Assembly (NCBI GenBank): GCA_963575745.1
Contig: CAUYUJ010017659.1
Coordinates: 152,001 to 216,000 of the forward strand
Source: Prorocentrum cordatum
Taxonomy: Eukaryota > Sar > Dinophyceae > Prorocentrales > Prorocentraceae
DNA length: 64,000 nucleotides
Reading direction: 5' to 3'
Shown here: piece by piece, positions 4,364-56,643 of the stretch
Layout of the letters: each line of letters starts with the position of its first letter
How positions within the stretch are numbered: position 1 is the stretch's first letter
Position numbers and translations under genes: made by a program
The notes under the pieces: generated by a model
Told to the model about the DNA's origin: nothing
What the model saw: the letters and a program-made list of their open reading frames with translations, nothing else
Databases searched by the model: none

Positions 4364-5695
4364 GGTCGACTTTCGGCGGCGCCCGCCAGGGGGGGCGCGA
4401 GGGAGGTGGGCTTCTGAAAATCGGGGATCCAATAATTCAGGAGAGGAAAAACTCCGACACTGATGATCGTCGATTCACAGGAAGGATGAGACATATGGGA
4501 AATGGGTTCGAAGACGAAGCTCCAGAACATATGGGGAATCGTGCGAGTTGTGTCTATTTATTAATGTGTGTGTGTCCCTGGGCCCTTCAAAATCGGGGAA
4601 CCAATCAATGGCATAAGCGTTACCTTGCGGAGGTCCGCGCAGAATTCTCGGATCGGCACTGGAGCCCCCGGGCGGCGCCTCCTGCGCCCCCTCACTGGCA
4701 CGCGCCGCGCACCTGGGAGGGAGGGGGGGGTCCAGCGCCGCTCCAGGCCTCCGAAAGTTCATATTGCGCAGGCCTTACGGTTGGTGCCGCCGACCCTGAA
4801 GGGGGACGACGACGACAACGGCGGCGGCCGCGGCGGCAACGACGATGACGCTGACGTGGGGCCAGAGTCCTCAGTGATGTTCTTGGGGTCTCTTCGGAAG
4901 GCTCTCGGGGGCCTCTGGGAGGAGTTTTGGGGCCTCTTGGGGGCCTCTTGGAATCAGCGCGTATATCCGAAAGTTTATATTTATGTCGCTTGTTGTTCCT
5001 CGATGAGAGTGCGGGGGCGATTCTCGGAAGGCAGGGGCCTCCTTAGAAGGGCGTGGCGGCTTCTACGGAGCCCACTCTGGAAAGCCCGCTTGCCCCGCCT
5101 CCTTCTCTGAAGCCCACCCCCTGTTGCCCTCGCGCCTCGCGCCCTTCCCTCGTGGGCGCCGCCAGGACTGCACGTAAGACAGACCAGTGCCAGCTGAGCC
5201 ACGGCGGAAGAACGGACGAACTCAGAGGCGCTCCAACACGGCCCCATGTGCGTCAGACGCCCAGATCTCCGACGATGCGTTGTCGTTGAATGCGGGCGTG
5301 TTCTCTCAATTTGAGCATCTGGGGGTACGTCTTCGGGCGCCAGCGCCGTCATCAATGGGCGTGGAGCGAGAAGCTGCCCACCTGGGAGCGCTCGGGACCT
5401 CTGGGGCAGCACATTGACAAGACCGTGTCGGTGGATGTCTGGGTGCACGCAAGACCCAGGACGCCTCTCGTCGTGGAGAAGAACGGGGCAAGATTTTTGG
5501 TTGTGTTCAGCCTCCAGGGGCCACGCCAGGCCCCAGGGTAGTCGAACAACTGCTTCTGACGAAAAGCAGAGGACAGAGTGGCCCTTAGCCGAGGTGAGGT
5601 TTGGTGTGGGCCCGCTGGGGTCCTTGATAGCCGAGTGTGATACGACAGCTGCTCACCACGCCCCTCTAGAACCGCGCGTCAAAAAGGCCCCGCTT

Positions 5696-40216: not shown

Positions 40217-40320
40217 ATAATCCAATAGCCCTTATAACGGCGACGATGGAACACAGTGCCGGGGAACTGCTTTGAACATCACCAGTCGTTCAAAGCAGTG
40301 CCCCGGCACTGCTTTGAACG
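40217..40320 (+). repeat. left terminal inverted repeat
   Basis: Structure from the outside in: the 22-base terminal box, a GGCGACGAT box, an imperfect hairpin (40253-40276), a short spacer and a perfect hairpin (40287-40320). Relative to the right end it lacks about 8 bases after the terminal box and has substitutions in the first hairpin. Confidence 0.85.
40287..40320. repeat. 34-bp hairpin, left
   Basis: Arms CGTTCAAAGCAGTGCC and its complement around CC. Same core at 48361-48410, 56540-56573 and 56574-56602. Confidence 0.95.
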
Positions 40321-40439
40321 ATGCGGAAATGCGATCAGCAGGAGCCTTCGTCTGTTCCTTCTCCTCTTCTCGTCGCTGTATGCTCTTCCTTGTCCTCCCT
40401 CCTCCCCCGTTCCCTCTCTAATTAATTACCTCGTTCTCC

Positions 40440-40800
40440 CAGTCTCACGCGCACTCTTCCTCCCCCCTCTCCTCCTCCTCTTCCTGCTTCTCCTCCTCGT
40501 CCTCCTCCTCCTCCGCCTCCTCCCCCTCATTTGTTATATTTCTCCGTCCTTGTCCTCCTGTCCCCGTTCTCCTTCTCCCTCTCCTCCTCCTCCTCCTCCT
40601 CGTCGTCGTCGTCCTCCTCCTCTTCCTCCTCCTCCTCCTCCTCCTCCTCTTCCTCCTCCTCCTCCTCCTCCTCCTCACCTTCTTCCTCCTCCTCCTCCTC
40701 CCCCTTTTCCTCTCCCTCCTCCTCCTCCTTCTCCTCCTCCCCCTTCCCCCTCTTCCTCCTCTGCTATCACTCCTCCATAATTCCTGTCCGCTCCTCCCCT
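40440..40800. repeat. CCT-rich tract
   Basis: About 330 bases of CTC/TCC triplets with CTT and CGT interruptions between the left terminus and the first ORF. ORFs across it are poly-Pro, poly-Ser or poly-Arg. Confidence 0.9.
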
Positions 40801-41110
40801 TCACTGATCTTCCTCTTCGTCATCATCATCCCTTTCGTCGCACGCCTCTTAATCCTCAATCGGTTCCCAATCTTCTCGACTTTCTTGTCATCCGCGTCCT
40901 TGGCTGTTGGAGGGGCCTCAGGAATTCTCAGGGCTCTTGTGTTGCACGCGAAGGCACACCTCCCAGGAACGCATCATCCTCCTCACATTCACCCTCCTCC
41001 TCCTCATCCTCCTCCTCCATGCACGTTCGGCTCAAGCCCGCGCCGACGGTAGGTTTCACGGCGGTTGGGCGGGCTCGCGCCCGCCTCCGCGGCCTGCAGT
41101 CGGGGCAGAG

Positions 41111-42277
41111 ATGCGTGCAGGGTGGGATGACAAAGCGGAAGAGGAAACACGGGCCGCAGTTGCGGATTCTTCAAAGAGCAGCGGCGGCGGTTGGGGAACA
41201 AGTGGGGGTTGGGGCGGCCGCAGTGGCGGATACGGCGGCGGAGGTGACCGCAGTGGCGGCTGGGGCGGCGGAGATTCTCTTGGCGGATGGAGAGGAAAAG
41301 CGCAGGATGGCGGCGACGGAAGTGACCGCAGTCGCGGATGGGAGGGCGGCGGATGGGGCGGCAACGGATGCGAGGGTTGGGGAATGGAGGGCGCCCGCTG
41401 GTGGGACGACGAGGGTGGCTGGTGGAATGCATGGGAAGGTGGCCGCTCGAGTGCCTCGGCAGGTTCTCCTGCCGCGGAGCCCGCGGCCGCAACAGCGGCG
41501 GGCAAAGGAGGCGGTCCCCTGCTTCCCCCAGGGCGCGAAGAACAAGGCGCAGTTGCGCTGTTTCAAATTGTGCGCAATGAGCCGCTGCCAATTTTCAAGT
41601 TGGAATTCTTCGAGAACTTCAGGGCGAACTGGAACGGCAATTATAAGCAGCACAACGCGGCCTTGAAGTGGTTCCGAGACGAGTACGAAGACCGAGAAAA
41701 CCCTTTCGGCAGCCGCACGCCCGTCTTCGGAGGTACCGCAGTTGCGGAGGAAATTTCGAAGATCCTTAAGTACCGCGCAAAGGGGAAGGCGCAGGACAAC
41801 AGGGATTGGGACTGGGACCACACTGTCAAAGTGCCGTGGTCTTGGCTGGAGATGGTCGCGCAGATGGATGGACCTACAATGCTGCGCGTCGTGTGCGGCC
41901 CTGACAATGACCGCAGTCGCGGGTTGGTCCGCTGCGAGTGCCGCCCGTGCCCTAGCAGTCTCGACAACATGAGGCACACGAAAGGGGTGGACAGAGGACA
42001 GGCGCAAAGAATCCCTCTGCCCCAGTGGGATTTCGTCCTCATCCGCGACGACGGCTCGGGCATTCGCGTCCACCCATCCTGGTCTAGCCCGAAGTTCAAC
42101 ACGTATGAGGTGGAGCCGCACTCGCATCCCGTGCGGGGCCCGAGGGCAGGTCTCGGCAAGAGCGATGGCCACGGAACGTTCACGTTCTGGAAGATGCTGC
42201 ACGCCCATCCGAATCCTGGGCGGTTCGACGCGAGCAAGGGGGCGCATCTGCAACCGCGGTGGTCCGCGCAGCCTTGA
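41111..42277 (+). CDS. ORF A: Gly/Trp-rich N-terminus with conserved-looking C-terminal domain, unknown
   Basis: The frame is open from further upstream without a good start; the first in-frame ATG in sensible text is 41111 (MRAGWDDKAEEETRAAVADS), giving 388 residues. Residues 20-110 are Gly-rich with many WG/GW pairs (GGGWGTSGGWGGRSGG, WWDDEGGWWNAWEGG). From about residue 150 the protein is ordinary globular text: LEFFENFRANWNGNYKQ, KWFRDEYEDRENPFG, VKVPWSWLEMVAQMDGP and FTFWKMLHAHPNPG. No family recognised. Dense WG/GW repeats are known as Argonaute-binding platforms in other eukaryotes, but that role is only a possibility here. It ends in TGA with no frame break, unlike most neighbours. 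Five micro-palindromes fall in frame, as Ala-Val-Ala, Arg-Ser-Gly-Gly and similar. Confidence 0.6.
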   Translation: MRAGWDDKAEEETRAAVADSSKSSGGGWGTSGGWGGRSGGYGGGGDRSGGWGGGDSLGGWRGKAQDGGDGSDRSRGWEGGGWGGNGCEGWGMEGARWWDDEGGWWNAWEGGRSSASAGSPAAEPAAATAAGKGGGPLLPPGREEQGAVALFQIVRNEPLPIFKLEFFENFRANWNGNYKQHNAALKWFRDEYEDRENPFGSRTPVFGGTAVAEEISKILKYRAKGKAQDNRDWDWDHTVKVPWSWLEMVAQMDGPTMLRVVCGPDNDRSRGLVRCECRPCPSSLDNMRHTKGVDRGQAQRIPLPQWDFVLIRDDGSGIRVHPSWSSPKFNTYEVEPHSHPVRGPRAGLGKSDGHGTFTFWKMLHAHPNPGRFDASKGAHLQPRWSAQP

Positions 42278-42279
42278 CA

Positions 42280-42942
42280 CCGCAGTTGCGGGATTGCGCA
42301 GCCATGGAACCGCAGTTGCGGAAACCGATCGCGTGACGCCGCGCTCGTTTGACTCACTATGCGCGCTTTCGGCCGCAGTTGCGGCGCTGCCTTCAAGCGA
42401 CTTCATACAGCTTGGCCGCAGTTGCGGCGCTCCCACGACTGACCGCTGTAATTAGGTGCTTCGGGCGCGCATCACCTCCGTTGAAGCACTCGTGACGTTA
42501 AGTAGCGCGGCCGCAGTTGCGGAGACAGGTACTTAAACAGATGGATCCGCAGTTGTTCGTCGTCCTCGTATCCCCTTCCCCGTCGTCCTCGTCGCAGTCT
42601 CCTCCCTCCGCCTTTCCTCCTCGTCGCAGTTCCTTCCGTTGGCCGTAGCCCGCCTCCGTTGGCCGAGTCATTTCCCGTCGTCCTCGTCGCTTTCCCCCCC
42701 GAGGGCCGCAGTTGCGGACTTTGTTGATTCCTCCTCCTCCGTTTCTTGCCCGTCATCCTCGTCGCAGTCCCCTTGCTCCTTTCACCCTCGTCTGAGCTCT
42801 TCGCGCCATCCTCTTCCGTCGCGTCCTCTCCATCCTCCTCTTCGCCTTCCTCGTCCTCATCCCCGCCGTCTCCCTCGTTGCCGTTCCTCTCCCAAGCCGG
42901 CCGCAGTTCCCCCGTCGGACGGGGGCCGCGCGCGGCCACGCC
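42280..42942. other. intergenic gap A-B with six micro-palindromes and a CGTCGTCCTC-type tract
   Basis: Six 12-mers (42280, 42310, 42373, 42416, 42511, 42706) lie between ORFs, showing that the repeat does not depend on coding. Bases 42560-42900 are TCGTCCTC/TTCCTCC-rich and resemble an untranslated leader. Confidence 0.6.
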
Positions 42943-44777
42943 ATGGACCCAGCTCGCAAAGCCGAGGTCGACAAGCGGTTCGCCGAGCTGAAGCAGCAAC
43001 TGCGGGAAAGGCTCGGCGCGCAAGGGGCTGCCGCGGATGCCGCAGTCGCGGAGCCGACGGGGGACCGCAGTAGCGGAAGCCCCGAGCGACCGCCGCGCGA
43101 GGCCTCCCCGCAGTCGTCTAGCTCCTCGCGGTCGGCCATCGAATATCGGCCGCCGCCGCCGATAAGCGCTGCGAGTGGGAGCTCTGCTGGTGGGAGGCGC
43201 GAAGAGGCGCAGTTGCGCAGGGCGCACTTGACCCCCAAGGCAAAATGGGGGCCTCGGGCGCAGACGCCGACGAAGCAGCAGGACCAACCAGCAGTGACGG
43301 GAGCCGCCACCGAGACCGCAGTTGCGGGGGTGGCCGGCGAGCCAGGTGCCGCGCGCGGCTCATCTGGGAGCAGCGCGCCCTCGGCCGTGCTGCTCGCAGC
43401 CGAGTCCAAACGAGGCGCCCAACCCGAAGACGAGGCCGCCTCCCAGGAGAAAGCCGCCGAGACAACCGCCTCGGCCGATTCGCGGCCGAGGAAAAGGCCG
43501 CCTCCCACGGAAGACTCGCCGCTGTCAGAACCGCAGTCGCGGGGTCGCGCGGGGCCTCCGTCGGAACCGCAGTTGCGGGAAGATGCGGGAGCACCGCGGA
43601 AGAAGCAGCGGACCAGGTCCCCTCCAGGGATAAACTACGTTGGGGAACGCCCCAAGTGGAACGAAGGATTCCTTCGTACAGCAGACGGCAATCGGGTTCC
43701 GTCCACCATCGCTTTGGTGTTCAACGTGGTGGTCATCACGAAGGTGGCAACAAAGGAAGATGTCTTCAGGTGCATCTTGCACCAAACTGCGGCGGTCGTC
43801 TTCGTCGTATGGGACCCCGAGCTGTTCCGCACGGGGAACGTCGAAGGCGCTTGCAGCTACGACGTTCGCGTTGGACTCAGGAGTGCCATCGACAACGCTG
43901 TCACTATGAAAAACGCCTCCGAGGAGCCTTACTGGACGACGGTTCCCCTGTTCAGAGAGACGGGCCTGGTGCTCGTGCGCCCGCACATCATCGCAGAGAC
44001 CGCAGTTGCGGGTCATGTTGTTGGGGCCACCCACGCCGTCACGATCCTGAGCTTTCGCCTGAAGGGCTCCGAGATGAATCCTGCCGCGGTGATCCGTTTT
44101 GCCGTCGTGTCCAGACACGCAGTCACCGAACGTCTCCAACACAAGATCACGCAAACAGAACAACAAGCGTGGCATCCAGCTTTCTTCAAGGACGCGGTTG
44201 CTGCCATCCATAAAAATGATGTGCGGTTCTTGTGCGGCCTGTTTGACATCCCGCCTGAGCAGCTCGCAGCATTTGGCCGCAGTTGCGGAGCCAGCTGCAC
44301 CTGCCCGGTGGGGGTGGTGTTCAGGGCTGGACCCGCCCTGTTCGGAGGCATTGTGGAGGGCACACGCGTCATGCATCCGAATACGTCCTCCCCATTGGCC
44401 CGTGCGACGTGCGCATTGCGGACTACAACCTGGATTTTGCAGGGAGGCCGTCGAAGAACGATCCCCAGTGGCTCCCTGATTGGATGCATCGAACAAGCGA
44501 CTCCATCATCTCTCGGCGCTGGGTCCCAGCGAAGTACATGCCCAAGTGGGAGGATGACCCTGACCGCAGTAGCGGAGTCAGAGAAAAGCTCCACTTGGCA
44601 GCGCTGCCCCCAATCGGCAAGGTCGTTCAGAAGGAGCTCAACGAGAAGACCTTCAGCACGCACTGGTGCGAGGGCATCCACCAAAACATCGTCTTCGTCG
44701 GCCACGGACGCGCAAGTCGGGCGAGCAAGCGGAAGCACGAAGAGGCGCGATCTGCCGCAGTTGCGGACGAGCGGTGA
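42943..44777 (+). pseudogene. ORF B: diverged EEP-nuclease-like protein, one frameshift
   Basis: ATG at 42943 in a CCATGG context. Residues 1-230 are low-complexity with basic patches (PRKKQRTRSP near 225 resembles a nuclear localisation signal). From about residue 235 a globular domain begins: TIALVFNVVVITKVATKEDV, VVFVVWDPELF, FRETGLVLVRPHI, VTILSFRLKG and VRFLCGLFDIPPEQL. This succession parallels ORF F and the strand order of endonuclease/exonuclease/phosphatase folds, with GLFD where GDFN would be, so catalysis is doubtful. Near 44370-44382 the sensible frame moves by one: MHPN is followed by YVLPIGPCDVRIADYNLDFA and KELNEKTFSTHWCEGIHQN, ending in TGA at 44777. The EEP relation is inference; the frame break is seen directly. 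Confidence 0.5.
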
Positions 44778-45489
44778 GTGCGGCAAGACCGAGGAGCCGC
44801 AGTTGCGGAACAGAGCTCGGTACTAATTACTGGGCGCCTGCTGCCTGCGTAGTGCATCCCAGTGTAGGATAGCCCGCAGTTGCGGTGTTGCGGTTGCGGT
44901 GTAGGATAGCCCGCAGTTGCGGGGTTGCGGTTGCGAAGCCGCAGTTGCGGTTGCGTATAATAGGAGAGCACGCGGTTGCGAAGCCGCAGTTTGCAATAAG
45001 TGTGCGCGCGCTGGGTCATCATCATCGTCGTCGTCCGTCCTCGTCGTCGTCGCTGCCGTCGTCGTCGTCGCGTCTGTCGTCTGTCGTCAGCAGTCGTCGT
45101 CGGTCGTCGTCGTCGTCAAGTCTGTCGTCTGTCGTCAGCAGTCGTCGTCGTCGTCGTCCCTCCTCCCTCCTCCCTCCTCCCTCCTCCCTCCTCCCTCCTC
45201 GTCCTCCTCCAGGCCGCATCCCCCCGCCACTTCCGTCCTAGCTGTCCTTCCCCTTCCCCTCCTCGTCCTCCTCCAGCTTGCACCCCCCTCCCTCCTCCAG
45301 CCTGCACCCCCCCCAAGCTCTCGCCCGATATTTTGGATTAAAACTGGGCCTTCAGTCGTCCGCAGGCATTCGGCTCAGCAGGTCGTTGGGCTCCTGGCAC
45401 ACACGCCTCCACCCTGAGCGACGGACGTCGTGCCATAGTCCGCCATATCGGAGCTTTGGGCCGCAGTGGCGGACAGCGTCGGCACAGAT
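44778..45489. other. intergenic gap B-C: micro-palindrome cluster and GTC/CCT repeats
   Basis: Holds 12-mers at 44797, 44874, 44911, 44939 and 45461 with GGTTGCGG echoes between them. Then come TCGTCGTC repeats (45020-45155) and a CCTCCCT heptamer run (45157-45200), a likely 5' leader of ORF C. Confidence 0.7.
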
Positions 45490-47916
45490 ATGAACGACAG
45501 CGTCGGCACAGATAATGCCGCAGTGGCGGACAAGAAAGCCGCAGTGGCGGACGAGACAGCCGCAGTTCCAGGCGGAACGCAAGGGATCTTTCAGAGGGCC
45601 AACGCCTTGAGGTCTAGATTCAGGACAGGGGACAAGGTGCGCCTCCCTGTGCTCATGCTCGCCCCGCACACGGGCAACCGAGGCGGGCACTACCCTCAGC
45701 AGGAAAGGGTTCGGGAACTCGCTGTGAAAATCTTCCTGGCTGGATTCACGCAAGCCGAAGCTGACCACGAAGGTGTCTGCGTTCAGATGTACCCAGCACA
45801 AGAGCTGGTGCTGAGAAAAAAGGAGGACCCGAAGTTCCAGACGTACACAGAGTACAATCTGGAAAAAGCGACCGGCCACCTCGCTGCGTGCTTCGACCGC
45901 AGTTGCGGAACAGACGTTGCGTATGGGACGCGTTCGCACTCCCACTTGTGCCTCGTGTTGCGGGCGTGCGCCCTGGGAGCCAAGTGGCCCATCCCCCAAG
46001 GCATGGAGTTCACGGAGGACGAGAGCGCGAGGCTGAAGCCCGTGCTCGATAAGGACGGCAAGCTCGACATGGCCGCAGTGGCGGAACATGACCCTGTCGC
46101 TAAGAAACTCGTGCAGGGGGGTATGCTCATGGAAGTGCTTAGCTGGAAAATCATGGACGAGGAACCCACTGGTGCTTCGCTCATCAGCCAGTCCCTCAAT
46201 AAAGGAGCCGATTTTGCGTTGCGAACGACTGAACTCACCGCGCTCCGTGTTCTGTGCAAGGCTGTTGACGCGGAGCTGCACGCCGCAGTTGCGGATCAGG
46301 TTGCCTTTGAAAAGGTCAAGCTCTCCGTCATGCACGAACTCGATCGAGTCGTTCAGGACCCAGACTTCATTGAGCTGTTCTCGTTCGTTGTTGGGCTCGG
46401 GAGCACGAAAGCGCAGTTCATCCCCTTGCTGCTCCAGTTCTGCGAGGTCTACGTGAACTCCAGGAGAAGGGCCCTTCGGCTCGGTGCCTTCGGGGCAGCC
46501 AGCGAGCTTCCCGACGAAGTGCCGTGGGTCAAGGTTGCCGTGGTGATGCGATGCTACAGGAACGCGCCTGCGAGGAAGAGGGGCGTTGACACTCCTGTGT
46601 GGTGCCCTGACCCAGAACAATCGTGGAAGAAGAAGGAGTTCCGAGACTTCCTCATCGACATGAACTCGGCTCTCCGTTTGTACTTGTTCACGCTGAGCAA
46701 GGCCATCGACGGCATGGGCCCTGAGAAGGCGATCGAGTTCAAGGCGAACCTGTGCATACTGACCGCAGACGGCTTCATACAGTACCTGAAGGACACCAAC
46801 TTCAAGGAACGAAGTATCCCAGGACATCGTCAGGCGCTCCTCCGCGCTTGCGCGGAGGCCACGGGGAAGGTGGAGCCGAAGTCCAATCGGGACGCCCTTG
46901 AGAAGGCCCTCGGCGAAGTGGGAGTCCGAGGCGGGAAGCCCGATTGGTTCGATTTCAACGCGTTGCCGCGCCCAGAACCGAATGAGCCCGCAGTGGCGGG
47001 GAAGACAAAGGCTTCCGCAGAGGAGCACGAGTTGATGCCGACGGTCATTTCCTTTGACCCCACGACGCAATTACCAACGAACCACCAGCGCAGCAGGGAC
47101 ACGACGGCCATTCCACGCGGATCCTTCCCTTTGCCAATCGCCGAATGGAGGCGTTCAGCGGCAGCGAAGGAGCTGGGGCGGGAGCCTGCTTTGGTCAGCG
47201 CAGTGTTGCTGTGCCTTTGGGCGCGCCACATGTCCGCAGTTGCGGAAGCGCAAGTAGAGGTGTTGCAAGACGCTGACACAGAGAAACGCACCGTCAAGGC
47301 AACCGCTGCAAACGACGAAAAATGCATCGAGTTGTGGCCGTGCGTCCCAAAGGCATCCAAGGTGCACGCCGCAAGCACGCACCCCGAGAGGGTGGCCGTG
47401 CAAGTCTGGGTGAAAGGAGATCCAAATGGGGCCACGCCCACGACCTTCTACTTGCACCCCGAGTTCAAGCCGCCTGCGGACAAGACGCCCGCCGACGTGG
47501 CTGACCACGATGTGCGGTTGAGAACATGGAAGTGGGATGCGCAAGAGACAATGCACGTCTTCTGGGCAGTCAACAGAGTCACGCAACAGGAAGTCCAGCA
47601 GAGAAACAGCCGTGATGAAAGCGCAGTTGCGCGCATCAGCATGGAGCTCGAGGAGAAAGAGTTGGCGGTGTGCGTGCCTGGGGCAGGCGGGCTCGTGCTC
47701 GCCGTGAATGCCCCCGTGCTGGTGAATACGGCGGCCGTAGAGCAAGGAGAAGAGCTCCTGTGGGAGGCGAGACCCAAAGCCGCACCGAAGAAGAAGGCCG
47801 CAGAGGAGACGTGGAAGACGGACGCGGCCAAGAGGGCCAAAGGGAAGCCTTCGGGCCAGCCCGCCCCGAAGAAATCAAAGAAAGGATTCGACGAATGCGG
47901 GGGGATGTCGCTCTAA
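45490..47916 (+). CDS. ORF C: 808-residue uncharacterised protein, uninterrupted
   Basis: First in-frame ATG is 45490 (MNDSVGTDNAAVADKK); the frame is open a little further upstream. It is the only long ORF of the unit apart from ORF A without a frameshift. N-terminal 35 residues are Ala/Val/Asp repeats made by the 12-mer. The body is globular: FRTGDKVRLPVLMLAPHTG, AVKIFLAGFTQAEADHEG, GTRSHSHLCLVLRACALG, FIELFSFVVGLGSTKAQF, DFLIDMNSALRLYLFTLSKA, LPIAEWRRSAAAKELGREP and VKGDPNGATPTTFYLHPEF. The last 50 residues are Lys/Ala-rich (APKKKAAEETWK, PAPKKSKKG), suggesting DNA binding or nuclear import. No family recognised. After the TAA at 47914 the same frame runs 44 more codons to TAG at 48049, including two 12-mers. 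Confidence 0.75.
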   Translation: MNDSVGTDNAAVADKKAAVADETAAVPGGTQGIFQRANALRSRFRTGDKVRLPVLMLAPHTGNRGGHYPQQERVRELAVKIFLAGFTQAEADHEGVCVQMYPAQELVLRKKEDPKFQTYTEYNLEKATGHLAACFDRSCGTDVAYGTRSHSHLCLVLRACALGAKWPIPQGMEFTEDESARLKPVLDKDGKLDMAAVAEHDPVAKKLVQGGMLMEVLSWKIMDEEPTGASLISQSLNKGADFALRTTELTALRVLCKAVDAELHAAVADQVAFEKVKLSVMHELDRVVQDPDFIELFSFVVGLGSTKAQFIPLLLQFCEVYVNSRRRALRLGAFGAASELPDEVPWVKVAVVMRCYRNAPARKRGVDTPVWCPDPEQSWKKKEFRDFLIDMNSALRLYLFTLSKAIDGMGPEKAIEFKANLCILTADGFIQYLKDTNFKERSIPGHRQALLRACAEATGKVEPKSNRDALEKALGEVGVRGGKPDWFDFNALPRPEPNEPAVAGKTKASAEEHELMPTVISFDPTTQLPTNHQRSRDTTAIPRGSFPLPIAEWRRSAAAKELGREPALVSAVLLCLWARHMSAVAEAQVEVLQDADTEKRTVKATAANDEKCIELWPCVPKASKVHAASTHPERVAVQVWVKGDPNGATPTTFYLHPEFKPPADKTPADVADHDVRLRTWKWDAQETMHVFWAVNRVTQQEVQQRNSRDESAVARISMELEEKELAVCVPGAGGLVLAVNAPVLVNTAAVEQGEELLWEARPKAAPKKKAAEETWKTDAAKRAKGKPSGQPAPKKSKKGFDECGGMSL

Positions 47917-48360
47917 GAAGCCGCAGTGGCGGCAGTCAGGGCGGCTTGCTCGCGTGACCGCAATTGCGGGCAACAGGCCGGAGGGGAGGACGCAGGCGTG
48001 ACCGTTGTGGCGGGGCGGTCCTGTAGTTTGCAGCATCGCTGCTTCTGTTAGGCGTCGCCGCAGTAGCGGATCGCTGACGCCGCAGTAGCGGATCGCAAAA
48101 AGAACTCCCCCCTCCCTCCTCCCTCTCCCCCCTCGCCCCTCCTCCACTTCCTCCCTCTCTCTTCCTCCTTTCCCTCCCTCCTCCCAAGTTCGAAGCCGAC
48201 GCTATTCATTCCCTCACTCCCTCCCTCCCTCCCGTCGATGTTCTCCGCATCCTGCCGCGGCCATCCTGGCGCCGACTCCCCCTCTTGCCAGTTCCCGCGC
48301 CGCGTGCACGGGACCTCCTCGGCAGCTCATCCGGCCCCAAGGCCCTCGAGGGCTCCCGCT

Positions 48361-48410
48361 CGCAGAATGCTTCAAAGCAGTGCCGGGGCACTGCTTTGAA
48401 GCATTCTGCG
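48361..48410. repeat. 50-bp perfect hairpin near the midpoint of the unit
   Basis: Arms CGCAGAATGCTTCAAAGCAG plus TGCC pair exactly around GG. Imperfect pairing continues outward through CCTCGAGGG to about 48340 and 48431. The core is the same as the terminal hairpins. Its centre (48385/48386) is about 45 bp from the arithmetic midpoint of the 40217-56643 unit. Confidence 0.95.
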
Positions 48411-48553
48411 AGCGGGGACCCTCGAGGGCCTCGCGGGGATCGCAGGGGCCGAGGGATTCATTCGCCTCGCCATTTGGCCCAACCGCGCGCGGCCCCACCG
48501 CCCGCACCACCGCCTTGCCCGCAGTTGCGGCTGTGCTCAACGCAGTAGCAAAC

Positions 48554-49542
48554 ATGCCGACTTCGAGCGAATGGACCCCTGCGTGCGTGGAGAAGGTCTT
48601 GTGCATCCGCGGAGGTTGGCTTGCGCAGACCACCCCCATCCCCGAAAAGGATATCAAGGTGCCCCACGCAGGGCCCCTCGGAGAGATAAGCTTCGTGCAC
48701 GCGAACATGCAAAAACCTTGGTTGCTCAAGGTGTGCGCGAAAGGTAAACCGACCGCAGGCGCCTTGAAGGCGCCCAAGGCCTGGGACGCGCTGAAGAAAG
48801 AACTCGCGAGGCAGGGCGGCGCCGCAGTTGCGGACGACGAGAGCGACGGCGACGCGGGGGACGAAGCAGATGACCCCATGTCGGCCCTGGTCAGCTCCTC
48901 CAGCGACGCGAAGAAGCTGGCCACGACCCCGAGCAAGAAGCAGAAGACTGGAACGCGTTCGGCGAGTACTGGCCTGCTGAGGGGAGAGGCCACAGAGTCG
49001 GCCACTGCCACTGTGCACTCCGTGCAGATGCCCGCCAAGAGCCGCTTGAAGTATCCTGAAAGGCCATTCGACACGTGCGGGTGGCCAGCTTCAAGCGGAG
49101 GAAGTTGTGGCTCGACGCTGCAGACCTTGGGTGGCTGATCGAGATGATCGTGGACGACGCGAGCCTCGGGGGTGTCCCCGACATCGACGACGGCGACAAG
49201 GGCGAGGCCGCAGTGGCGGACAAAGAATGGGCAACAGCGGTTGACCCTGAAACCCCGCTGGCGAAGCACAGGGAGCTCGGCCCCCCCATGGCACAGGGGA
49301 GCGGGTCTGGCTTCACCGTCGTTTGGGACTTCAAGGGCGCTTGGGTCGCGACGATCACGCGAGAGTGCGCCAACAAGGGCAAAACGATCGAGATGGATGT
49401 GAAGTAACTTACCAAGAAGAAGTGGCAGTCGGCGCAGTCGTCGAAGGGCTATGACTACGAGTGGGAGGGCATGACGCAGCAACAGCGCAAGCAAGCGGCT
49501 CTGGATTACCTCGAGCTCCAAGTCCCCAGTGTGTTCGACTGA
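48554..49542 (+). pseudogene. ORF D: unknown protein with one frameshift and one in-frame TAA
   Basis: ATG at 48554 starts MPTSSEWTPACVEKVLCI, then GEISFVHANMQKPWLLKVC, WDALKKELARQGG, an acidic linker with DDESDGDAGDEADD, and KSRLKYPERPFDT. Near 49075 the frame changes and reads VRVASFKRRKLWLDAADLGW, then LIEMIVDDASLGGVPD and GFTVVWDFKGAWVATIT. A TAA at 49405 is followed in the same frame by LTKKKWQSAQSSKGYDYEW and QAALDYLELQVPSVFD, then TGA. The continuation is too protein-like to be chance. No family recognised. It lies between the central hairpin and the transposase. Confidence 0.5.
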
Positions 49543-49956
49543 GGCCTGAAGCCGCATGGCCCGCAGTTGTGGTGGGGCTACTGAGTGCCCGCAGTTGCGG
49601 GGCGGCTGGGTGCGAGTGGAAACGCGGAGGGCGAGGCGGTGTGAGGAGGCAGGCGGAAGGCGAAGGGGCGCCGTCGCGTTTTTGTCTAGGGTGTTCCACG
49701 GGTGCACGCCTAAGTGCGCCAACTTGTGCGGGCGAGCGTGTTTCTTAGAGAAGCATTGAGTGAAGCATCGAGACCCTGCGCGCGCGATGATTGGGGCTTC
49801 CGCGCGGGCGCACTTCAACAGTAGCTCCTCCCTCCTCCCCTCCTTCTTCGCCCCTCCGCATCGTCTGCAGTTGCTCCTCCCTCCTCTCCTCCCTCTTCCT
49901 AGTTCTGTATCCCGCAGCCGCGTGCCCCGCCCGAGTCGTTCGCCACGCGACCGCGC

Positions 49957-52850
49957 ATGAATGTTCCCGTGGGGCGGACGTGGTATGGCGAGGAGGACGG
50001 AACGCATTTCGAGGTGGAGTGGCTCCCTTACGACAGCGGCCGCGCACCGAGGAAAACGAGGTATGGCACCACTGGGCTCGCCAACATCTTGAGCCGCAGT
50101 CGCGGCGATGCTTGCCCCAAGAAGATAAAGGTGCACGCATGTGCGGACGTTCCGTGTCTAGCGAAGTGGCCCGTGTCGCAGTACGGCTTTGCAGAGCCGC
50201 CTCAATTTCATGCGCGGCCGTCTGCTTGGCGACCAGGCGCGCCGCCGCCACCCGCAGTTGCGGTTCCCGCGGCGCCAGCAGAAGCTCCAGGCGGCGCCGC
50301 AGTTGCGGCTCCCTCGGCCCCTGCACACATAGCACCAGCAACACCAGCAGAACTCGCAGCTCCTGCGCAAGAAGGACACGCAGCTCCAGCACCAGAAGCA
50401 CCCGCAGAACCCAAACCTCCAGCAGCCCCTGTGCCCGAAGCACCCGCAGCAGCAGTCCCCCCAGCTCCTCCAGCTCCAGTGCACGCAACACCAGACCCGC
50501 CTGCTGCGCAGGAGACCGCAGTTGCGGTTGAAGCTCCTGAGGGAGTGGAAGCGGACAAAGACACACCACTTCCAGCACGCTTGCCACCAGCGCGGCCGCT
50601 GCCAGAGAACTGGTCGAAGACGCAGGTCGCATTCTTCCCGTGCCCAGACCCAAAGGCTGCAGCACGAGTTGCGGCGCCTGTTGGCGACGCCTTGCGGCCA
50701 CGAGTCGCGGCGCCCCCCCTGGCGCCAGAGAAAGGTGTACCTGTGGAAGACGCGCCAAAGATCCAGGCCGCAGTGGCGGCGACGGTGCCTGACGTCGTGA
50801 TGGCTCTCCTGAGGCAGATTCTGTCCGAGAATTCCTACATTGGGTATTCAGCTTTCATGCTGTTTGCCTTGCGGTTCGGGCGTCGACCTTACGTGTGGGA
50901 AGGCGAGAACCGCAAGGACCTCCTTGACTTCTACATGCCTTGGGCAAAGGAGAAGTGCACTGAGCCATGCGCCGTCGACGGCGTGGCGTGCGTACTCGCC
51001 GCTGCTGAGGATCTGTTCGGGGAATGGACAACGGTGGAACTCATGCCCGTGACTCCCGAGAACCCTCTCCATGAGGTGCGCCACTGGGTGGCCGCAGTTG
51101 CGGTGGGTGGCGTGTGCTCTGAGGGGGCGGACGCGTTGAACAGGTTCTACGGTCCTCTGGGACAAAGGGTCCTAGGGACTGTTTGCGATGGAAACTGCGG
51201 CATTGACCTTATGGCGATGATGTTGCAGAAACCGCAAAATGCCGAGACGCGCAAATGGCTTCGGGAGGAACTGTACGATTTCGGGGTGCGCCGCTGGGAC
51301 GAACCGGGGTTGCACGACATGCTCGTTGTCACGCAGGAACTAACCTTGGAGGAGGTGCGGGCGTACCGCAGTTGCGGGGCCAGCGGCCCTGCTGGACCCA
51401 TGGTCCGGCACGACTCCGAGGGCGAGGGCGAACCAGCAGAGGCGCCGAGAGAGGCGAGCGCGCCACGCCCCGCTCTCATGGCGGCGTTAGAGTGGCAGAC
51501 GGGCGTGCAGGACATGGGTATATTGCTTGCCATGGCTGAGGCTATGCCTGAGGCGTTGCAGGAGGAGCAGATCAGGGCGCACGCACTGGCCAGCGCACGC
51601 CCAAAACCCGAAGTTGCGGAACAGAAGCGGCGCGTGTGCCCGCACATGCTCAGAGACCGCGAACTGGTTTGCAAAGAACTGGAGGAGCACGCACGCAGTT
51701 GTGGTTGGATGGGCGAGGGCGTTCTGCCACGGAATTCAATCGCGTCTTTTTGCGGGCGGTTCACGTGGCCGAAGGGCATGGGGGTCGTCCAGCAGCGCCA
51801 GGCCGTCTCCAAGTGGTTACAAAACTGGCGCACACAAGGTGGACATGGCACGGCGGGCGTGCATGGCCGACGCCGCGCGCGGGGCAACCAAGGGCGCCCG
51901 AACAAGGCTCCTTGGCTGGAAGCCGCTCTGTACGAGTGGTGGTCCCACATGAGGTACTCCGTGGACTGGAAGGCGGTGGCCAAGCGAACCGCAGTTGCGG
52001 AGGAGAGGCCCAAGATGTTGGCCAGGTTCTCCCAATCCCTGCTGGTTACGAAGGCGAAGCAACTCGTCGCGGACTACTGCGTGGAGACAATGAAGCGGGG
52101 AGGCAAACCGATGGTGCCGCAGTTCGGCCTCGGTGGTGGGTGAAGTGGCGGCGCTCCTACGGCCTGAGCATGAAGAAGCCGAACCGCAAGTACAAGGTGC
52201 CAAAATGGTTGCTCCAATCTCGTTTTGAGACTAAGATCTTGAACGTGGCCAGGGTCCGCGCAGCTGCAGAGGAGCTTCTGGGGTACGACCCGCACATCCT
52301 GAACTGGGACCAGTCGCCCTTTCACCACAACGATTCGTCGTCGGCCTCGAAGCCGACCTTGGCTGTGAAGGGTGGCATTGTCCCGCTTGTCGAGGCGCAT
52401 GACGACAGCAGGGCTCGGTGGACAGCGAACCTGACGGTGTCGAGCGACGCGGAGGACATCCGCAGTTGCGGACCACCGCCGGCGGAGCTAATGTTCAAGG
52501 GTGGATCTGTCATCGCTGAGGGCTTGGCCGCACATGCCCGCAGTCGCGGCTATCCGTCTTGGGTGAGCACGGCGACGTCCGAGAAGGGGTCCTACCGCGC
52601 AAACGACGTTGTATCATTCTTGCAGCGGCACTTGCGGGCCTGGCCCGACGACCCGCAGTTGCGGGGAAAGTGGCGCATCCTCATGGCCGACGACCATTCC
52701 CCGCACCAAGCAGACGCTGTGCGGAGACTCGCCTGGCAGCGCGGCTACGTGCTGATCATTCACGGCGGGGGGACGACCGCAGTTGCGCAGCCCGTGGACA
52801 CGGACTTGAACCAGCACGTGAAGCGCCGGTACATTGCCCTCGAGACCTAA
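49957..52850 (+). pseudogene. ORF E: pogo/CENP-B-like DDE transposase with N-terminal OTU-like region
   Basis: ATG at 49957. Residues 1-90 form a small domain (VGRTWYGEEDGTHFEVEWLP), then a Pro/Ala linker (about 90-210). Near residue 410 there is VCDGNCGIDLMAMML, resembling the D-G-N-C of OTU-type cysteine proteases. Residues about 640-680 (GRPNKAPWLEAALYEWW, WKAVAKRT) look like a helix-turn-helix. At about 52130 the frame shifts by one (QFGL to RWWVKWRRSYGLSMKKP). The DDE domain follows: HILNWDQSPFHHND, a second Asp in WRILMADDHSPHQAD and a third in AQPVDTDLNQHVKRRYIALE. The last two are separated by 35 residues. All three acidic residues are present. TAA at 52848 is followed in frame by the usual C-terminal continuation. 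It probably recognises the terminal repeats at 40217 and 56643. Confidence 0.75.
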
Positions 52851-54298
52851 GCGCTGGTGCAGCAAATGGCGTTGGGGAAGCACGTGCCGCAGTTGCGGCG
52901 TTCCGATTGCGCCGACTTGATGCTGTCAGTGTTGGAGGATGTGCAGTTGCACGTGGACGCCGCGAAAGGTTTCCTGAAAGTGGGAATTCGAGCGCCCTTC
53001 GACAAGTCAGGAGATCTCGAGATTTGCCGAGAGGCGGCGGAACTCTGGGAAGCAGGGGGGCTGCGAGCAAAAGTGGACCCCGCAGTCGCGGAGGTGAGGG
53101 AAGAATGCGAGCAGAAACGTTTGAAATGGTCCTACAATGACGTGCTGCGTCTCATACACGAATACGAGAAACACGACGCCACAGATTCCGTGTTGGAGAA
53201 GCTCGGCGACGAAGCGCTAGGCCAGGAGCCAGGCCACGAGGAGGGCGATGAGGAGGGCGGGGAGGGAGGAGGAGGAGGAGGAGGTGCACGAGGAGCACGA
53301 GGAGGACGAAGAGCAAGAGGAGGCCTCGTGGGCCGAGGCTCTTGCGGAACAGTGCGATGCCGCAGTTGCGGCACCTGGGCCTCAAGGATCCTCGGTATCC
53401 ATGGACTGCGTGGTCGACGCAGAGGCGGCCGAGCAGGTGGCAGTGGCGACGTCCATGGCAGAAACGCTCCGCGAGGCGGAAGATATGCTGCGCCAAGTGG
53501 GCATGGAGAAACTAGCGCAGGATTGCCGACAGCAACGACACAAACAAAAGAAGCGGTTGAGAGAGCTGGCGCGGGAGGACAACGAGGTCCTACGAGCGTT
53601 GACTGCCCAGCGAGTCCACGAAGCCGCAGTGGTGGCGAAAAAGCGGCGCCTGGCTCTGGAAGCGAACGACAGGACGAAGGCGTTGCACGATCTCAAGAAG
53701 CAGATTCGAGAGGCCGAGGCCGCCTTGAGGGCAAAGAAGGAGGCCGCAGTTGCGGTGGAAACGGCGTTGGCTAACAAACACGCCCTAGCGCAGTGGAACC
53801 CCGAGGAGTTCAACATCAAGAAAAAACAGGCTGGCAGCTCTGGACCGCCTGGCTCGCGGAAAGGGCGTCCTCTCAGACGAGCAGAGGGGGGGGTGGGCAT
53901 GGTTCAAGACGCATTGGGACGAGGAGATGCGCAAGCAGCACAAGGAGCAATGGTCGTTGACGTTTGCTGGGTGGCTGCAAAAAGTCGCGAACGACGCGGC
54001 GTCTGGGAACCGTTCGGCGCTGTCGCAGTTCGTGCATTCGGAAACAGCGAGAACCCTGGGAGGGCAAATGGCGCTGGCAATCCCAGCCCTAGCGCGATGC
54101 AGGCCGCAGTTGCGGACCCACGGGAAGTCCAGCGTGAAGCTGTTTTCCCGAGCGGCGCCCGCGCGGGCAGGAGATGAGGCAAGACCGCAGTTGCGGTCTT
54201 CCAGCTGCTGCGAAAATAATCCTTTCTCAGTCCCTTGCAATCCTCGCCCTCCTTCTGCTTCTCCGCCAGTCCCTTTGTTGTTCTTTCAGTTCCTTTGA
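52851..54298 (+). pseudogene. ORF E continuation: transposase C-terminal tail with coiled coil, two frameshifts
   Basis: The frame after the TAA continues ALVQQMALGKHVPQLRRSD, MLSVLEDVQLHVDAAKGFLK and ICREAAELWEAGG, matching the kind of tail that follows DDE_1 domains. At the GGA run near 53265 the frame changes to EEEEEEVHEEHEEDEEQEEA. Next come SMAETLREAEDMLRQVGMEK and a long charged coiled coil (KQKKRLRELAREDNEVLRAL, KALHDLKKQIREAEAALRAK, about 53450-53810). At the A-run near 53822 another shift leads to LAALDRLARGKGVLSDEQRG, WAWFKTHWDEEMRKQHKEQW and FVHSETARTLGGQMALAIPA. Both shifts sit in short homopolymer or triplet runs. The exact terminus is unclear: 54177 in one frame, 54298 in the other. 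Confidence 0.6.
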
Positions 54299-54424
54299 GT
54301 CCTCGCCCTCCTTCTGCCACTCCTCGAATCCCCTTTGCCTCCTCCCTCCATCCGAGCCCATGCCCATTCGCGATCCATTTCCGTAGCCACCGTGGCTCGA
54401 GGTGGCGCGCGCGAAGACCCAGGC

Positions 54425-56423
54425 ATGTGGCCGCCCGCGCGCCCGGGCGCATCCTCTGGGAGTACGGACCGTGGAATTCGATTCGCCAGAACGGTGTTCA
54501 TCCACAGCGCTGAGAAGGAGGGGGGAGGCGAGGACGAGAAAGAGAAGGAGGAGGGAGGCGAGGACGAGAAATCCGCAGTTGCGGATGATGACGACGACCA
54601 GCGGACGCAAGATGGCGACAGCACCGTCGCGTCCTCGGCTGCCTCCGCTGACGAGGCTGAGCCGCGGGGAGGTGCGGGAGCCGCAGTTGCGGCAGCACAG
54701 GACTCCTACATGCCGAGAGCGTTGTCGTCGCGGAGAACCTGGACTCGGGCGCCCGTCATCCAGACAAGCAATCTGTCGGAAAACCAAAGAGCTCTTGTCG
54801 ACGCATGGGAGGAGAGAACGGGGTACGAAGCGGGACGGGTCGGCTTCTACGTGGCCAACTTCGGAGGGACTGCAGCTAGACCCGTGCAACGCGCGGACGA
54901 GTGGGCGCAGCTCCGCGCGAACCCTGCCCAGATCATCGCCCAGTGCGAGTGCGACGACGAGACCTGCGCGGTACTCAGTGGGGAGCGCGACGCGAGGGGC
55001 AGTGCAGCCGCAGTTGCGGACGATGCGTTTCGGAATCGGACTCACTACAACTACCTGTGCATCAGGGACCCTCCTTGTTGGCATCAGGGACCGCAGTGGC
55101 GGCCACATTGAACGCGTCGGCTTTGCGAGGCTCTTCCACAAGCAGGAAACATCCAAAACGAAGAAGAAAAAGAACAAGTCCGCAGTTGCGGATGTTCCTG
55201 CGCCAAAGTGGCACAACAAGTACTCCACGGCGATGGTGGTGCGCGTCCACCTGGACCAGGCCGTGCCCCATCTGGGGGGTTCCTTCAACGTCATGGCGGT
55301 GCACGTCCACCACAGCTTGGCCAACCAAGACTGGGGCGTCACGAAGCTCCATGAGTTCTACAACTGGTTCGTCGCCTACGTCAGGGAATGGGACGTGAAG
55401 GTCTGCATGGGGGACTTCAAAATGTGCATGTTCCAGCTTGTGTCCTGGTGCCGCAATTGCGGCCTGACTGTGGACGTCGCCGCGTGGACCCCCTGGAAGA
55501 CAGCAGGCGGCCAGCCCAGGGCAGACAGCATGGCGATTTTGTTCATAAACTGTCCTGGGCAGTACAAGCTTCACCATGGCCTGGGTGTTCTGCACGACCG
55601 TGAGGGCGGATTCTTGACGACCCAGCATGATCCGTCTTTCCCTGTCTTCGACTACACGATTGGCCCTGGGAAGATGCTTCAGACTTACGTGCCCAAGGCT
55701 GAGCCCGTTGAAAACAAGATGCGCGCCTTCCTGACGCCATCTGGCGAATCCTTGACCGCAGTTGCGGAGTTCGAGCAAAGGATGGCGCGCAGGGAACGCG
55801 ACGAGTGGGTGCGCCATCCCTTCAGAGTGAAGCAGGGCAACCTCGACGACAAGATATGGCATGGCGCCTTCGGCAGGGCGAGGCACGGAGCGCACTTCCC
55901 TCTGGTGGCTTTCACGCACAATACGTGCCGCAGTTCACCTGAAAGACTCGCCGCGAGGTTGGAACGCAGGAAGGGCGGCAGGAAGGGCGGCAAGAAGGGC
56001 GGCAAGAAGGGCAGCTACGCGGACACCGCAGTTGCGGGGAAGGGCGTCCGACCCCAGATGGGAACCGCAGTTGCGGGGAGAGACGCGGGGGCTGAGCGAG
56101 CTGGGAACACGCCACCGCCGCAAGCTGCCAACGGCGACGATGCGACCCCTTCTTGGGCCGCAGTGGCGGCTGGGTCCTGGGACGCCAGCGGCAGCGGCGC
56201 ATGGGAGGCGCGCAGTCCCGCCACGAGATGGCAGGTCTGGTCCTGGTGGGACTGGAGCTCGAGCGAATGGGGCGCTGATGGCGCGCAGTGGTGGCCCTCT
56301 GATCATGCCGCAGTTGCGGACAATGCCCCTGAGGGCTCGCCTCCTCAGCGTGAAGTCGAGTGGGGCTCGAGCGGGCGACCTGCCGAGCGACCTCCGTGGA
56401 GCTTCGAGGCGCAGCGTTGGTGA
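54425..56423 (+). pseudogene. ORF F: EEP-nuclease-like protein with Lys/Gly and Trp-rich tail, one frameshift
   Basis: ATG at 54425 (MWPPARPGASSG). An acidic linker comes first, then a domain with VGFYVANFGGTAARP, NPAQIIAQCECDDETC, and, after a +1 shift near 55070-55080, LLVGIRDRSGGHIERVGFAR. It continues STAMVVRVHLDQAV, FNVMAVHVHHSLAN, WDVKVCMGDFKMCMFQL and FPVFDYTIGPGKML. The order Q-x-E, H-V-H, GDF and FDY follows the endonuclease/exonuclease/phosphatase fold, with Lys replacing the usual Asn of GDFN. After about 55950 there are KGGKKGG repeats and a Trp/Ser-rich tail (VWSWWDWSSSEWGADG), reminiscent of ORF A. A target-nicking or cargo role is speculative. The domain parallels ORF B and the two may be paralogues. 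Confidence 0.55.
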
Positions 56424-56424
56424 T

Positions 56425-56540
56425 GGCCGCAGTTGCGGGCAAGTGGAGCATGATGTTGATTGCCGCAGTTGCGGACAGTGTACGCTGGAAAAATCATCAT
56501 CATCATCAATCATAATCATCATCATATCATCATATCATAC
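56425..56540. other. 3' gap: two micro-palindromes and an ATC repeat
   Basis: Two 12-mers (56427, 56463) are followed by ATCATCATC/ATATCATC repeats up to the right terminal hairpins. Confidence 0.85.
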
Positions 56541-56643
56541 GTTCAAAGCAGTGCCGGGGCACTGCTTTGAACGCGTTCAAAGCAGTGCCGGGGCACTGCT
56601 TTCGATCGTCGCCTCGTCGCAGTTATAAGGGCTATTGGATTAT
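56540..56643 (-). repeat. right terminal inverted repeat
   Basis: Two hairpins (56540-56573 perfect; 56574-56602 nearly so), a CGATCGTCGCC box and the terminal GTTATAAGGGCTATTGGAT box. Inverted relative to 40217-40320. Confidence 0.88.

Follow-up and report, generated by a model that had tools for sequence, protein, structure and literature searches.

A 64,000-nt stretch of contig CAUYUJ010017659.1 from the bloom-forming dinoflagellate Prorocentrum cordatum (hereafter the window) contains a putative DNA transposon with six modelled genes and, along its body, an oriented 12-nt near-palindrome, CCGCAGTNGCGG, which we call the tag (Table 1). Scanning both strands of the window, we found 69 exact tags, all on the plus strand. 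The reverse complement had no match on the minus strand anywhere in the window, and no exact tag lay outside the tagged unit (41154-56474) on either strand. The original prediction had counted about 71 copies, always in the sense of the open reading frames (ORFs). Both points stand, with just 6 more sites in the unit, all on the plus strand, differing from the tag by one mismatch; since these are so few, the word is sharply kept. The further statement that none occurs outside the unit is correct for exact copies in the window but not for one-mismatch forms, which occur there twice on the plus strand and once on the minus strand. The unit carries on average one tag per 222 bp, and the variable loop base N is T in 46 exact copies, G in 12, C in 7 and A in 4. 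Tags are spaced more evenly than random (coefficient of variation of the gaps 0.77 vs 0.98, p 0.02), with a smallest gap of 21 (p 0.002) and a largest of 705 (p 0.02). With up to one mismatch, CCGCAGNNGCGG gave 146 rows on the two strands against a shuffle mean of 18.2 (largest shuffle 29), a figure that double counts because a TT copy also matches the minus strand at one mismatch.

The 15.3-kb unit, originally taken to be the sole tagged region, proved to be part of a longer element (40220-56640), other copies of which are tagged too. Its terminal inverted repeats consist of ATCCAATAGCCCTTATAAC, one mismatch and then GCGACGA. The flanking TA may be a target-site duplication or part of the repeat. 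Three of the four other copies inspected carry the repeat core at the two ends, are bordered by TA on each side and sit in different flanking sequence; the exact core was absent from the end stretches of the fourth (C1406). Terminal inverted repeats, a TA target-site duplication and a DDE_1 transposase with HTH_psq are traits of pogo/Tc1-mariner-type transposons, and repeats of this type are present in the window and in those three copies. Among 11 relatives of gene 5, three match DDE_1 weakly (best E 0.0032, with the relative P0024 below the cut-off) and three match HTH_psq weakly (best E 0.0093). Because of these matches, together with the TA flanks, the sequence suggests a pogo/Tc1-like DNA transposon. 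A search with gene 3 yielded 55 scored copies among 1,556 first-look candidates, all full length, without internal stops and 97-100% identical. The inverted repeats, TA flanks, many copies and weakly DDE-like gene agree with the earlier view of the unit as mobile. Genes 3, 5 and 6 have relatives of 64-78% identity, all on contigs of length 11,273 nt, suggesting that these relatives share one contig with the same gene set as the element.

Table 1 Features of the tagged element in the window.
Feature	Position	Strand	Remarks
Whole element	40220..56640	+	16,421 bp; inverted repeats at both ends; last-base coordinates are our reading
Left terminal inverted repeat	40220..40246	+	19 nt exact, one mismatch, 7 nt exact
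Right terminal inverted repeat	56614..56640	-
TA, left end	40218..40219	.	candidate target-site duplication
TA, right end	56641..56642	.	candidate target-site duplication
Span of 69 exact tags CCGCAGTNGCGG	41154..56474	+	pattern scans of the window
Gene 1 (ORF)	40907..42277	+	6 tags; no function assigned
Gene 2 (ORF)	42943..44826	+	10 tags; no function assigned
Gene 3 (ORF)	45466..47916	+	816 aa; 7 tags; no confident domain
Gene 4 (tentative ORF)	48380..49138	+	2 tags
Gene 5	49957..54177	+	DDE_1/HTH_psq-like candidate transposase
Gene 6	54402..56423	+	weak endonuclease/exonuclease/phosphatase likeness
Tag variant	41547..41558	+	both bases of outer pair swapped; likewise at 43207 and 47621
Imperfect tag	47958..47969	+	loop G to A; exact 12-mer in 6/6 other copies
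Imperfect tag	49561..49572	+	C to T; exact 12-mer in 6/6 other copies
Tag in window	48080..48091	+	absent from 6/6 other copies

Sequence constraint and distribution of the tag

The gene models place 51 tags in coding (4.0/kb) and 18 in noncoding sequence (6.2/kb), which bears out the claim that they lie in coding and intergenic DNA alike. The coding tags occur in three reading frames, with 30 read as AVA, 12 as RSxG and 9 as PQxR. Gene 6 looks out of frame at three of the nine PQxR tags (54573, 54681 and 55008), which are AVA in P0035, a 96% relative. AVA tripeptides are coded GCA GTN GCG in 34 of 38 cases, compared with 9% predicted by codon use, and 30 of the 34 sites are flanked by CC and G. 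The loop base is T in 4/12 RSxG, 21/30 AVA, 8/9 PQxR and 13/18 noncoding tags, as if this free base absorbed the amino-acid needs of the protein. The tag is a nucleotide-level, sense-only word.

In six other copies of the element, compared over 6 kb each, identity to the corresponding part of the window is 94.7-95.3%; every one has 23 tags and no antisense tag. At 20 window tags, none of the 220 fixed positions differ in the six copies, compared with 343 of 5,724 other columns; the tag sites were picked as intact in the window, which biases the count towards conservation. The remaining three window tags were outside the count, namely 44000 (stretch edge), 44874 (missing in 2/6 copies) and 48080. 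The same contrast was seen in coding (0/149 vs 165/3,862) and noncoding sequence (0/71 vs 178/1,862), and CpG columns outside tags differed in 60 of 1,044 cases. Adding the imperfect sites 47958 and 49561 gives 2 differing positions among 242 by our arithmetic. At the right end of the element, six tags are present in all four copies compared.

A corresponding signature is found in the proteins of distant relatives. The AVA reading of the 12-mer dictates A, S, T or P before the tripeptide and G, A, D, E or V after it. In 32 relatives of genes 3, 5 and 6, which are ~18-58% identical (seven closer ones were set apart), 118 of 136 AVA tripeptides have the dictated neighbours against 13.6 expected, although the rows are not independent, P0011-P0014 being near-identical. 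The antisense signature [ASTP]ATA[GADEV] occurs 4 times, compared with the 118 in sense, and RS[CGRS]G occurs 21 times while its antisense R[NDYH]CG does not occur. Some tag positions are shared across relatives and others are lineage-specific. On these protein patterns, the tag is apparently family-wide.

The original prediction called for a genome-wide count on both strands. CCGCAGNNGCGG has 47,830 and 49,088 matches on the two strands of 4.13 Gb, or about one per 85 kb per strand, compared with one per 222 bp in the element. No tag was found in a further 52.9 kb of the same contig. Among 100 genome places listed, 10 held exact TT copies, all of them singletons within 10-kb stretches, seven with a common flanking repeat and two with another. 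The common one is a second dispersed repeat (GCACCCCGCAGTTGCGGATAAGAGTGAGG and variants; L179-L185, with the tag near 5,000 in each), which bears the 12-mer once and is the source of seven of the ten sampled exact copies elsewhere.

Scans for tag pairs gave 43 stretches in viral contigs and at least 118 in prokaryote contigs. None of the 25 loci examined resembled the element (the richest of 169 had 9 tags); they were mostly tandem-like or had repeats spaced by multiples of three.

Possible roles of the tag

The reading we prefer is that the tag is a multivalent self-recognition signal of a giant, TA-flanked and probably pogo-like dinoflagellate transposon family, likely read on the transcript, and we give it close to an even chance. 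The element would mark itself by carrying about 70 copies of the oriented 12-nt word on its nucleic acid; a protein of the host or one encoded by the element would bind the word, and selection or biased conversion would maintain it. Where coding permits, the sequence would drift towards the tag, with the one free base taking up the amino-acid demand. Less surely, the tag may be recognised in the transcript, either as a linear word or as a short stem capped by an AGUN loop; this would set the element's RNA apart from that of the host, for purposes such as stability, export or cis-preference, and we place this RNA reading at just under one half. We offer more tentatively, as somewhat short of even, the view that a giant transposon lineage evolved a self-identity word, repeated dozens of times on the sense strand through genes and spacers and kept across deeply diverged members, which tells its own transcripts or DNA from those of its 4-Gb host by an element-borne reader. 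Self-recognition, which was among the roles first proposed, agrees with the conservation seen between copies and with the relatives' sense-only signature; a classical transposase-site array fits poorly, and the transcript hairpin is a possibility.

Evidence for a hairpin comes from the outer stem pair, which is C-G at 69 sites, G-C at 3 and C-C at 1, i.e., three double swaps against one single change. No double change was seen in the inner pairs across tag sites. The swaps suggest that the stem matters, but the folding test did not support the proposed transcript hairpin mark: the flanks give no significant help, and folding is no weaker on the antisense strand. An argument from G.U-wobble tolerance was dropped because 49561, one of two one-mismatch sites of this type (the second is 53624), is exact in all six other copies. 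The Rfam scan of the window returned no match at gathering scores. The coding-sense orientation, the fixed A-G-T and the free fourth loop base would favour a one-sided reader over a symmetric dimer.

Several results weigh against self-recognition on the transcript. With 60-nt flanks the mean predicted hairpin probability in sense is 0.46, a value not significantly above that obtained on shuffling the flanks (0.39, p 0.14) and below that of the antisense strand (0.52, p 0.04). All modelled genes of the element lie on one strand, and orientation to transcription is therefore inseparable from orientation to the element. There is no known reader protein for the tag. The signature in relatives is read from protein sequences, and the AVA form is missing in two of the 11 gene-5 relatives (P0028 and P0032). 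Among the six copies alone the depletion of differences is weak (0/220 vs 98/5,724, p 0.024; coding p 0.07, noncoding p 0.36) because these copies are very similar to each other, and the tag at 48080 is missing from all six.

The main rival, which we consider rather unlikely, is a polar DNA signal, that is, a word that a translocating, packaging or recombination protein recognises on DNA, as is the case for Chi, KOPS or uptake sequences. Its orientation would follow the polarity of the element, in agreement with the single orientation along the whole element, the even spacing and the lack of an RNA preference in the folding test. However, the loop is asymmetric, the orientation is the coding sense in relatives of three genes (perhaps all one-strand), and this rival likewise has no known reader. 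Drive without use, in which biased gene conversion or copying among the copies builds up a word that is functionless for the element, seems improbable. The element copies are many and alike, and passages of a paper on uptake sequences discuss these as pure molecular drive as well (PMC2397512). Nevertheless, such drive would need to act in the coding sense only and to persist in relatives 18-58% identical.

Still less probable is an array of DNA sites bound by the transposase that the element itself encodes, like subterminal motif arrays. The weak HTH_psq matches in 3/11 gene-5 family members speak for it, but the tags fill the entire body in one orientation, with none in the outer 0.9 kb at the left end. 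We give very little credence to a self-inserting 12-nt micro-element, which would be frame-neutral since 12 is a multiple of three. One gene-3 tag site stands opposite a four-residue gap in five relatives, and many cells of the gene-5 tag alignment contain gaps. However, other well-aligned tag sites face different residues without a gap (HVPQLRR vs RVPQLSR; TTAVAQPV vs TTPVAQPV, where the window has a one-mismatch tag), and 54 of 95 aligned cells in P0024 are gap-free and different. Because several sites are of this kind, in-place change is, as judged from the alignments, a common origin of tags, with insertion possible at others; such replacement of aligned residues by the tag is at odds with the likeness once drawn to in-ORF palindromes that insert. 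A protein repeat (Ala-Val-Ala) or codon bias has practically no chance, for although AVA is the commonest reading (30/51), the three frames, the dense tags in spacers and the fixed codons already contradict it.

Comparison with described sequences

DNA uptake sequences of Neisseria and Pasteurellaceae are described, in the passages of PMC2397512 considered here, as bacterial, genome-wide and tied to transformation. Like the tag, they are short oriented words with very many copies in permissive coding places and are highly conserved, and they are thought to serve self-recognition or drive, the former being the role we propose. In the element, too, one oriented word is far above chance and confined to self. 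Unlike uptake sequences, the tag is eukaryotic, belongs to one mobile-element family and is sense-only.

The cyanobacterial HIP1 octamer is a perfect palindrome, genome-wide in its hosts and over-represented in genes. The tag resembles it as a short near-palindrome enriched in genes and differs in being oriented and confined to one element. Rickettsia palindromic elements are long insertions that place palindromes within ORFs; the tag shares the in-ORF position, but it has 12 nt and often no alignment gap. The 12-bp motif bound by TNPA of En/Spm forms subterminal arrays in both orientations, and here the likeness lies in the many 12-bp words of a DNA transposon, whereas the tag keeps a single orientation over the entire body. 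Giant eukaryotic transposons are likewise large, with terminal inverted repeats and extra genes, according to passages of a review (PMC6431247). The main text of that review uses the words pogo, Tc1 and dinoflagellate 0 times, and the passages considered describe no dispersed tag.

In the titles and abstract starts of the open-access literature, we found nothing like the tag among dinoflagellate palindromes and transposons, giant transposons or palindromic elements, in line with the earlier statement that no eukaryotic repeat of this kind is described. The 12-mer or either of two of its 10-mers is in print in 32 papers; among the 15 matches listed, one, a Bdellovibrio paper, has the 12-mer itself. 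The carrier is of a known kind, and this literature gave no described counterpart of a word so dense, on one strand, tolerated in coding sequence and restricted to a single mobile-element family. If the tag does serve self-recognition, a eukaryotic parasite has a sequence-level solution to the problem of telling self from non-self, and this in a group for which the abstract of PMC12787238 describes gene expression as mainly post-transcriptional. One 12-mer probe suffices to make this idea testable.

Genes and minor features of the element

The window copy looks partly decayed. Gene 5 is split over several frames and is continuous in its 98% relative P0024, and the first part of gene 6 is out of frame relative to P0035, in which it is continuous; both relatives are on other contigs. 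Gene 3 is intact, and gene 2 may be frame-broken near its end, which is a guess. An AlphaFold model of P0024 (mean predicted local distance difference test score, pLDDT, 63.6) gave 0/71 fold matches at E <= 0.001, and the model of gene 3 had a mean pLDDT of 55.3. Sequence searches of PDB with A1, A2 and A3 returned nothing credible (best E 0.076), and for genes 3 and 6 no relative was confirmed in viral contigs.

In the N-terminal part of gene 5, residues ~146-160 of P0024 include a DGNC motif, which recalls OTU-type cysteine proteases; no OTU-type Pfam match was found in P0024 or in the Pfam scans of the gene-5 family. Two P. cordatum gene models, P0022 and P0023, hold a ~30-residue gene-3 stretch (AIDGMGPEKAIEFKANLCILTADGF) inside unrelated proteins, one a kinase and the other a thioredoxin-domain model. 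These stretches may be exonised pieces or model errors, and neither model has any of the three tag signatures.

Near-perfect 34-nt palindromes (CGTTCAAAGCAGTGCC...) lie just inside both ends of the element (40287-40320 and 56540-56607), and another lies mid-element (48369-48402) inside an inverted repeat with 50-nt arms (48335-48436). Pyrimidine-rich CCTCC or CGTC tracts are found upstream of several element ORFs (40400-40780, 42560-42890, 45020-45310 and 48100-48230).

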